Positions 32,242 to 33,816 of a stretch of DNA of 38,458 nucleotides are shown here, one piece after another. Position numbers and translations under genes: made by a program. Source of the stretch: Clostridia bacterium (lineage in GTDB: Bacteria > Bacillota > Clostridia > Oscillospirales > Acutalibacteraceae); assembly GCA_017407645.1 (NCBI GenBank), contig JAFQWE010000037.1, positions 1 to 38,458 on the forward strand. The letters run 5' to 3'. Under the pieces are notes generated by a model. That model saw nothing but the letters and a program-made list of their open reading frames with translations. It did not search any database and was not told the DNA's origin. Numbering within the stretch: position 1 is the first letter of the stretch; every line of letters begins with the position of its first letter.

Positions 32242-32248
32242 GCAAGCA

Positions 32249-32554
32249 AAAAGCCAACCTTGAGGCACACTCTGTAAGGAAGTGTGCCTCAGTTATATTC
32301 GCCTAACAGCGAGTGATATTGCTTCGCAGTGATATTAGCTGATGCTAGTGTTATTGTCCTTTGGACAGTTTATATGGCGAATGTAATATCACAAAAACCA
32401 AAAGTTTTTATAACACTTTTGACGTTTGGCAAAAATACCACTGCAAACGATAGTTTGCAATATCACTATGACACTTTCACCAACCGAAAGTGTCACTTTT
32501 CTATACAAAAAGGAGACTCTTCTTTACGAAGTGTCTCCCTTTCGGTTGGCTTTT
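32249..32554. repeat. Palindromic modular repeat element 1 (306 bp)
   Basis: The terminal inverted repeats are AAAAGCCAACC (32249-32259) and GGTTGGCTTTT (32544-32554). Inside are GAGGCACAC/GTGTGCCTC (32262-32290), then short hairpins CGCctaacaGCG, GCttcGC, AGCtgatGCT and GTCCtttGGAC. These are separated by the 9-base spacers AGTTATATT, AGTGATATT (twice) and AGTGTTATT. The right half has inverted spacers (AATATCAC, ATAACACT, ATACCACT, AATATCACT) around AAAAAC/GTTTTT and GCAAACgataGTTTGC (32443-32458). It ends with GACACTTTC/GAAAGTGTC (32470-32494) and GGAGAC/GTCTCC (32512-32538). The element fills the gap between the pdaA stop (7 bases away) and the spo0A stop (4 bases away), and contains no gene. 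It may double as the terminator for both. Confidence 0.85.
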
Positions 32555-32558
32555 GAAT

Positions 32559-33323
32559 TTACGATACCTTCTTTTGCAGGCGGAGTTTGTCGGCAATCAT
32601 TGCAACGAACTCGCTATTGGTGGGCTTGCCTCTTTCGTTATGTATGGTGTAGCCGAAATAGGAGTTGAGCACGTCAATATCTCCCCTATCCCACGCTACC
32701 TCAATGGCGTGGCGGATGGCACGCTCTACTCTTGAGGAGGTTGTAGAGAATATTTTTGCAACGGTGGGATAAAGCTGTTTGGTTATGGAATTGATGATTT
32801 CGGGCTGCTCTACCGACAGAATAATAGATTCACGCAAATAGTGATAACCTTTGATATGGGCAGGCACACCAATTTGATGCATAATTTCGGTAATCTGTAA
32901 TTCAAGCTCACTGCGCTCATCCTGCAATGGATTGGCAACCTCGCTTGACCAACCCACAAGACTGCGGATGCAATCTGCCAAGCCGTCAACGTTAAAGGGC
33001 TTAAGCAGATAATATGCCGCGCCGTGAGATAGTGCCGCGTGCTCAAACCTTGGGTCGTCATAGCCTGACATTACGATAACGTCGGGTTTACGTTCAAGAT
33101 TCAATCCGTCAATGCGATCAAGGACGCCCACCGCATCAAGCACCGGCATAAACATATCCATAAGCACTGCATCGGGTTTATTTGCTCCAATACCGTCAAG
33201 GACTGATTGCCCGTCCTTTGCGGTGAACACTACATCCATTCCGTCTTCACGTAGCACGTCGGCGCAAGCCTTTGCCAACTCGGTTTTGTCGTCTGCGATA
33301 ATTACTTTTAACTGTTTTTCCAT
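32559..33323 (-). CDS. spo0A: Sporulation master regulator Spo0A
   Basis: The 254-residue response regulator has a receiver domain (acidic Asp11/Asp12, phosphoacceptor Asp56 in LMDMFMP, Lys108 in LLKPF). Its C-terminal Spo0A effector domain carries the recognition helix [15 protein letters not shown] (197-211), near-identical across endospore formers. Spo0A-P binds 0A boxes and starts sporulation. The ATG at 33323 is chosen (GGAGGC 7 bases upstream); the longer frame from 33359 adds 12 residues without a ribosome site. It usually lies beside spoIVB, which is absent here. Instead it is convergent with pdaA and has a palindromic repeat element on each side. Confidence 0.96.
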
Positions 33324-33359
33324 TATGATTGCCTCCGTTAATTTATTTAGTGCAACCAT

Positions 33360-33388
33360 AAATTACCATATTCTTCCATTTTTGTCAA
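33360..33388 (-). promoter_or_regulatory. Probable sigma-A promoter for spo0A
   Basis: On the minus strand, a perfect TTGACA (33388-33383) is 17 bases from TAATTT (33365-33360), with an extended -10 TG. The -10 is weak, as expected for a regulated promoter. A short inverted repeat (AAATGTAAA/TTTACATTT) lies just upstream at about 33406-33426. Confidence 0.6.
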
Positions 33389-33460
33389 TAGTTTTCCTTA
33401 AAATAAATGTAAAATTTTTACATTTTCTTTGCAGAGCAAAAGATTACGACAGCATATGAC

Positions 33461-33814
33461 AAAAACCGCCTTAAGAGGCACACGACCTAAGGATGTGTGC
33501 CTCAGTTATATTCGCCTGACGGCGAGTTGTATTGCTTTGCAGTTATATTTGGATTTCATCCAAGTTATATTCGCTTCGCGAGTTATGGCGAATATAATAC
33601 AACTAAAACCATAGGTTTTCATATCACTTTGCCTTAAGGCAAAATATCACTGTGAGACCTATCTCACAATAAAACTCATTATGTTTATTCTTGTAGGTTG
33701 TTTTTTAAGTATGCAATAAACTATGACACTTTCAAACCGAAAGTGTTAATTTTATTGTAAAAAAGAAATAGGGAGAAACTTCTTTACGAAGCATCTCCCT
33801 TAAAAGCGGTTTTT
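33461..33814. repeat. Palindromic modular repeat element 2 (354 bp)
   Basis: The terminal inverted repeats are AAAAACCGC (33461-33469) and GCGGTTTTT (33806-33814). Inside are GAGGCACAC/GTGTGCCTC (33475-33503), CGCCtgacGGCG, GCtttGC, TGGATttcATCCA and CGCttcGCG. Their spacers are AGTTATATT (33504, 33541, 33563) and AGTTGTATT (33525). The right half has AAAACCataGGTTTT, TTGCCttaaGGCAA and GTGAGAcctaTCTCAC, with the inverted spacers AATACAACT, CATATCACT and AATATCACT. The ends are ACACTTTC/GAAAGTGT (33726-33746) and GGGAGA/TCTCCC enclosing CTTCtttacGAAG (33771-33799). The order of parts matches element 1 but most stems differ in sequence. It ends 2 bases before the stop codon of the GH39-like gene. 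Confidence 0.85.
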
Positions 33815-33816
33815 TC

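Follow-up and report, generated by a model that had tools for sequence, protein, structure and literature searches.

In the genome of a member of the Clostridia placed in the Acutalibacteraceae (GCA_017407645.1), the gene spo0A is framed by two related multi-hairpin elements, which are considered here together with IVP, the 23S rRNA intervening-sequence protein (S23p, PF05635), whose genes accompany similar arrays elsewhere. Both lie in a 38,458-nucleotide stretch (contig JAFQWE010000037.1, positions 1 to 38,458; hereafter the window), copy A at positions 32248-32554 and copy B at 33461-33815 (Table 1). That both gaps beside spo0A hold elements of one grammar had been noticed from the letters alone, and is borne out by their sequence, by their pairing as direct repeats in blocks of 75, 47, 35 and 31 nt (77-85% identity), and by their folding, with z scores of -10.6 and -10.8 for the two copies relative to dinucleotide shuffles, none of 100 of which folded equally well. 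Each element starts and finishes in complementary, terminator-like arms. The left outer arm is followed by H1, S1, H2, S2, H3, S3, H4, S4, H5 and a centre, where H denotes a hairpin and S a short conserved word; after the centre, hairpins H6-H8 alternate with the inverted words S5'-S8', and H9, H10 and the right outer arm close the element, so that in both copies the second half is indeed the reverse complement of the first in its words. H1 and H10 form terminal inverted repeats, which are clear in a sister copy elsewhere (L104) and diverged in copies A and B. The conserved spacers had been given as nine bases long. Their conservation stands, and the unit word is 7 nt, GTGATAT or ATATCAC, because the outer T and A of adjoining 9-mers pair across the intervening hairpin; the longer spacer is the word plus one stem base on either side. 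Seven words can be recognised in copy A, where the fifth is imperfect (AATATCACA), and eight in copy B. Neither copy contains an S23p/IVP reading frame, and a coding role was ruled out for both, as only short mechanical open reading frames overlap them, in agreement with the original prediction.

Table 1. Features of the two elements beside spo0A (positions are those of the window)
Feature	Positions	Strand	Basis or remark
Copy A left outer arm AAAAAGCCAACC, 5' arm of terminator-like hairpin	32248..32259		pairs with 32544-32554
Copy A terminal hairpin H1	32262..32290	+	sequence
Copy A left half, words S1-S4, hairpins H2-H5, centre GGCGAATGT	32291..32384	+	sequence; sub-gathering Gut-1 match 32290-32359
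Copy A right half, inverted words S5'-S8', hairpins H6-H8	32385..32467	+	sequence
Copy A tail hairpin H9 (TGACACTTTC/GAAAGTGTCA)	32469..32495	+	sequence
Copy A hairpin H10, inverted relative of H1 (clearest in locus L104)	32512..32538	+	sequence comparison
Copy A right outer arm GGTTGGCTTTT	32544..32554		pairs with left arm
Copy B left outer arm AAAAACCGCC	33461..33470		9 nt exact pairing with right arm
Copy B terminal hairpin H1	33475..33503	+	sequence
Copy B left half, words S1-S4, hairpins H2-H5, centre GGCGAATAT	33504..33595	+	parser; sub-gathering Gut-1 match 33503-33575
Copy B right half, inverted words S5'-S8', hairpins H6-H8	33596..33676	+	sequence; weak minus-strand Gut-1 match
Copy B tail hairpin H9	33725..33746	+	sequence
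Copy B hairpin H10	33771..33799	+	sequence
Copy B right outer arm GCGGTTTTTT	33806..33815		9 nt exact pairing with left arm

Half of each core, that is, of the two word-bearing halves around the centre, comes close to a motif already catalogued. At permissive thresholds, the left halves match Rfam Gut-1 (RF01706) with 44.3 bits for copy A and 36.6 bits for copy B, where the gathering score is 50; the right half of copy B gives a weak Gut-1 match on the opposite strand (22.9 bits, E 0.14), and nothing in the window matches at the gathering score. Other RNA families were rejected for the two copies, the remaining sub-threshold matches having E values of 0.34-0.77. Sister copies pass the Gut-1 threshold at six of the 20 loci scanned, with 51-59 bits (L080, L029, L034, L002, L097 and L010), and at L080 both halves do so, on opposite strands. 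Judged by these matches, the element family includes Gut-1, which corresponds to half of a core. The two window copies, gene-less members below the threshold, are hence not filed under that name. The earlier statement that no described family has this layout holds only by half: the left halves of both copies are close to Gut-1, and several of their sisters pass as such. Gut-1, about 77 nt long, is on record as a human-gut noncoding RNA, for which no role is given (PMC2864571), and this was the only open-access full text in which a mention of it was found. The two-half layout, the terminator arms, the mobility and the link to IVP are absent from the accessible part of that description. Arrays built on other words (L212, L250) give no Gut-1 match.

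The grammar was examined across sister copies with a core parser, which reduced 99 parsed cores to 76 distinct ones and did not pick up copy A or broken copies; 32 of the 76 are complete, with four words on each side. In all 32 complete cores, Watson-Crick pairing joins base 5 of S1 to the final base of the centre (15 A:T, 9 T:A, 8 C:G). The two arms of H4, H6, H7 and H8 are complementary to 0.93-0.99 within a copy and to 0.44-0.65 when arms are swapped between copies (the 32 complete cores, copy A not among them), so for these stems the original observation that stems differ between copies holds. It does not extend to H2 and H3, with arm identities of 0.98 and 0.96 among the same cores. In 51 of 66 cases, the minus strand of H3 reads GCGAAGC or GCGTAGC, the first of which is the type case of stable DNA mini-hairpins, for which GNA and GNNA loops are the rule. 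Very stable DNA mini-hairpins with a two-base-pair stem are on record (PMC10527192, accessible part). In both halves, loops of the form G..A lie on the strand that reads ATATCAC: in the right half they account for 22 of the 43 triloops and 44 of the 70 tetraloops (T..C for one and none, respectively), and the left half shows the mirror pattern in 19 of 31 triloops and 19 of 34 tetraloops. At least 16 of the 44 right-half G..A tetraloops are not GNRA. A similar argument from loops, running in the opposite direction, was made for a different motif by Weinberg et al. (PMC2864571, accessible part). The pairing of each left word with a right word was also considered and set aside, clear covariation being confined to S1 and the centre, with a weak signal for S4-S5' (z 2.9).

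The most secure part of the analysis is the tie between IVP and heptamer arrays. An IVP gene in the same orientation lies 26-58 nt past the core at L008, L022, L034 and L036 and 488 nt past it at L030; Pfam assigns two of these five directly to PF05635, and a family search places the rest. Among 60 genomes, IVP was found in 16 of the 17 that bear cores and in 11 of the 43 others (Fisher p 1e-6), and it was found in none of 14 named control genomes. By eye, hairpin arrays precede IVP genes at 17 of 30 and 10 of 28 loci; nine of these 27 arrays use a GTGATAT-like word and the rest others, for example GCTAAAT, GTGATGT, AATGAAG or GTTATGA. Inverted 7-mers, scored automatically by a test that missed four of six GTGATAT arrays, were detected in 13 of 30 regions upstream of IVP genes and in 3 of 66 upstream of other genes. 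Many distant IVPs have hairpin-less flanks of tandem words, which form plain inverted repeats around the gene, with a period of 7 in 31 of 37 significant windows. Over the 66 of 70 IVP loci that entered this test, period-7 repeats were found in 53 of 132 flanks (in 34 loci), compared to 19 of 1198 control flanks taken from array-bearing loci of metagenome-assembled genomes (MAGs). Plasmid-borne IVPs, from Cyanobacteria, one Bacteroidota and one member of the Clostridia, have period-7 arrays on both sides in all 11 examined, of 26 records. At some IVP loci (e.g., L242, L243 and L245) no array is visible by eye. The most common number of words per array is five (17 of 46 arrays by an automatic and noisy flank count), and some plasmid arrays are much longer, so that five words per array is only suggestive. 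The closest solved relative of IVP is 2rld (E 1e-29), which has five chains.

The word and the sequence of IVP also vary together. The word could be named by eye at 38 of the 70 IVP loci, of which 35 remain when three single-word loci drop out. IVP identity is 0.77 within words and 0.50 between words, a difference that none of 2000 label shuffles reached, and the nearest IVP bears the same word in 35 of 35 cases. Species kinship alone is insufficient to explain this tie, because IVPs of one genome that go with different words are 0.53 identical (two cases), whereas IVPs from different families that share a word are 0.75-0.80 identical (three pairs). In two congeners that have the same architecture before one gene, the words have changed together, to GCTAAAT in one (G119) and GCGATAT in the other (G204), which may reflect either a change of word at the site or two separate insertions there; in three further congeners, the array is not in the stretches examined before that gene. 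From this co-segregation we infer that IVP would read the words.

Several IVP loci are of interest in their own right. A search of viral contigs for IVP found none; one gut contig labelled as phage (MT835815, L335) carries a tRNA gene, a terminator, an array of GTGATAT words with hairpins, and an IVP that shares 73% identity with the one at L008, and is a possible vehicle. Array-bearing IVP genes lie between drmD and an MmeI-like gene on a Planktothrix plasmid (L329) and between hsdS and hsdR in Monoglobus (L330). On the 5' side of IVP at L329, six copies of CCCCAAT, which we take to be the STRR1 heptamer of the short tandemly repeated repetitive (STRR) sequences, stand beside a second word, CGTAAAT. 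At L298 (G206:C20), adjacent arrays have the words GCTAAAT and TTTCATA.

The original prediction was of a repeat family, and further copies are plentiful. In the genome of the window itself (1.36 Mb, 71% complete), the pattern RTNATATTN{4,24}AGTKATATT has 32 matches and its reversed control one, blastn finds 18 stretches, and merging the results leaves about 17 places, four of them at contig ends. Matches with E <= 0.001 occur in 22 of 60 genomes, the source genome included, of which 17 were counted as core-bearing and five have the tail only. A wider scan of named genomes with three exact words gave at least 114 stretches; 112 among those listed are labelled Clostridia or Bacillota, largely from gut MAGs, and the remaining two listed, from Planktothricoides (L153) and Methanosarcina (L173), lack the hairpin layout, being plain tandem repeats (14 and 15 nt, respectively) in which ATATCAC occurs. 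The array is missing from all 29 other spo0A-like loci examined in relatives, some of them distant homologues or clipped at contig ends, with at most three word matches per 250 nt compared to eight at the window locus. On this ground a role tied to spo0A was rejected, and the association with that gene is incidental.

The surroundings of the copies say something about where they sit. The 18 nt to the left of H1 have an exact complement of at least 9 nt at 60-280 nt downstream in 17 of 43 H1-type copies, compared to 3.4% in a swapped control, and more remote arm matches of 12 nt (L169 and L187) and 10 nt (L008) enclose open reading frames. Because complementary arms flank them, many copies lie inside the loop of a terminator-like hairpin. 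In a second class, comprising 13 copies by eye, a complete terminator, often that of a tRNA gene, precedes the element in place of H1. At six IVP loci (L202, L204, L206, L214, L251 and L259), the 3' arm of the upstream tRNA terminator recurs between the two word arrays and there resembles the centre of the GTGATAT family. At L008, L187, L190, L135 and L155, other open reading frames lie between the core and the presumed right arm, as if they were cargo, presumably encoding a small membrane protein and kinase-like and DUF559-like proteins.

Three plasmid sites point to replacement of a short patch. The Nostoc C052 plasmid has a 431-bp IVP element where all four homologous plasmids examined have 197-198 bp; in Nostoc ATCC 53789, 466 bp stand in place of 328 bp of a methyltransferase gene, judged from both relatives examined; and in an Anabaena cylindrica plasmid (L333), an IVP gene with heptamer arrays lies between cas2 and cas1, in place of 64 bp (one record). 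No target duplication was seen by eye at the first two sites. In the two minimal elements IVP is the sole gene; their inverted repeats measure 34 and 39 nt, with five AATT boxes. No empty site was found around G047, for which one genome was compared.

Copies A and B are probably non-autonomous versions of a mobile element that depends on IVP and that, when complete, would consist of two inverted arrays of a 7-nt word and an IVP gene. The comparison of sequences supports many copies, patchy spread, the co-occurrence of arrays with IVP, the co-segregation of word and IVP, the location between terminator arms and the three plasmid replacements, and through these it supports mobility; together with the absence of genes from the copies and of a conserved tie to spo0A, this favours the non-autonomous mobile element among the roles first proposed. 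Several points weigh on the other side. No movement has been observed, the replaced patches could be later deletions, and to our knowledge IVP has no known catalytic motif. IVP is close by in only five of the 76 cores, and one core-bearing genome (G020, 59% complete) yielded no IVP. The word classes were assigned by eye, at 38 of 70 loci, and pairing of left with right words is hardly supported beyond S1 with the centre. A near-range arm match was not seen in 26 of 43 H1-type and 10 of 11 tRNA-type copies. As for sites, no empty one was found for copies A and B, the sole congener compared (G001) having no orthologous stretch; a fourth plasmid site (L328 versus L343, about 76% identity) is too diverged to judge; and the L254 site in genus g114 is not clean, the left flank being 82-86% identical in four of four congeners that lack the element and the right flank not syntenic.

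One alternative is that the array acts as a structured noncoding RNA, with IVP as its RNA-binding partner and no mobile device involved. Gut-1 is listed as an RNA by Rfam, the stems are compensated, and the IVP family resembles Avd of the diversity-generating retroelements (PMC10053308, accessible part). However, the halves are inverted, so that a single transcript would carry opposite strands; the stable G..A loops fall on opposite strands in the two halves, and at least 16 of the 44 in right-half tetraloops are not GNRA; and the high copy number and the plain inverted repeats that make up hairpin-less arrays at IVP genes also argue against an RNA role, which we regard as unlikely. The likeness to Avd, the many gene-less copies, and patch replacement, which is compatible with copying in, would equally suit a retroelement without its own reverse transcriptase, whose transcript is copied back in trans with an Avd-like IVP, but the loop types suit DNA better and the arrays differ on the two strands, making this explanation a rather improbable one.

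Selection by the host offers a different account, namely that the elements are structured 3' modules, terminators or mRNA stabilisers, retained for host use in the manner of repetitive extragenic palindromic (REP) sequences. Although many copies do lie in terminator-like hairpins or after tRNA terminators, such retention is hard to reconcile with the absence of the array from all 29 spo0A-like loci of relatives, and it leaves unexplained both the use of one word per element and the tie of that word to IVP; we think it highly improbable as a general explanation, while individual copies may be used by the host. Finally, the inverted terminal hairpins H1 and H10, the high number of gene-less copies and the other open frames between the arms would be expected of ordinary miniature inverted-repeat transposable elements (MITEs) served by a conventional transposase outside the sequences examined, in which no search aimed at one was made. 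Because no target duplication was seen at the first two plasmid sites, IVP is the sole gene in the two minimal elements, and the word follows IVP, this explanation has very little to recommend it.

How an IVP-dependent element might move is suggested by what is on record for its relatives. S23p is a toroidal homopentamer, and the rRNA intervening sequences replace small hairpin loops, their function and origin being unclear (accessible part of PMC4990558). Combining these two features with the five chains of 2rld and the 7-bp repeats of the STRRs leads to a proposal of one word per subunit and patch replacement. IVP, a ring of five in solved relatives, would read the words, probably one per subunit and on a single strand; the interposed hairpins, with their GNA or GNNA loops, would fold out and render the words contiguous; and the element would be copied into a target exposed as a single strand, for instance the loop of a hairpin, where it would take the place of a short patch. 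Gene-less copies would rely on an IVP of matching word produced elsewhere, so that the window copies may be mobilised in trans, for example by the same-word IVP at G000:C29:35916, and the enzyme that cuts and joins may be the host's. Catalysis by IVP and the pentamer-on-single-strand model are hypotheses.

Each of the known systems shares part of this picture. The rRNA intervening sequences, which are thought to be selfish and whose mobility is unexplained (PMC4990558, accessible part), resemble the present elements in having an S23p gene in full copies, in replacing hairpin loops, and in their complementary borders; borders of this kind in place of a hairpin loop are present in copies A and B and in 17 of 43 sister copies. 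They differ in that copies A and B are intergenic, beside spo0A, and not in 16S or 23S rRNA, that the present elements are many-copied, and that these have heptamer arrays, the rRNA ones not having been scanned for words. Cyanobacterial STRRs are usually 7-bp repeats and are recorded as having no known function (PMC2670836, accessible part); the tandem 7-bp words are the likeness, but the words of copies A and B are separated by hairpins, whereas those at plasmid IVPs are contiguous. Neither a link between STRRs and IVP nor anything of use on the literal words or on patch recombination was found in the open-access literature. The resemblance to Avd is one of protein family, and of the features of Avd systems neither a template/variable repeat pair nor a reverse transcriptase turned up, no search having been aimed at either. 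REP sequences, bacterial interspersed mosaic elements (BIMEs) and MITEs are short, palindromic, dispersed, extragenic and gene-less. The present elements share this character, but they combine conserved words with variable stems, their lineage-specific word tracks IVP, and their class replaces a patch without a target duplication having been seen.

What is new here appears to be the IVP-heptamer system as a whole, not the window copies themselves. IVP/S23p, the rRNA intervening sequences, Gut-1 and the STRR heptamers have each been on record for at least 16 years, and the IVP link may tie Gut-1, the rRNA intervening sequences and the cyanobacterial heptamer repeats into one system. Tentatively, and with rather less assurance than we have in the reading of copies A and B, these three could be faces of one class of mobile elements that spans phyla and has no known recombinase, in which a toroidal pentamer of four-helix bundles would read an inverted pair of heptamer arrays, of about five lineage-specific words each, on single-stranded DNA and drive the replacement of short patches at hairpin loops. 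If it is true that IVP alone moves such elements, the mechanism would be of a kind not found in the open-access literature. Overall, since the sequence of IVP predicts the seven-letter word and the word predicts IVP, what had been separate puzzles may become one question.
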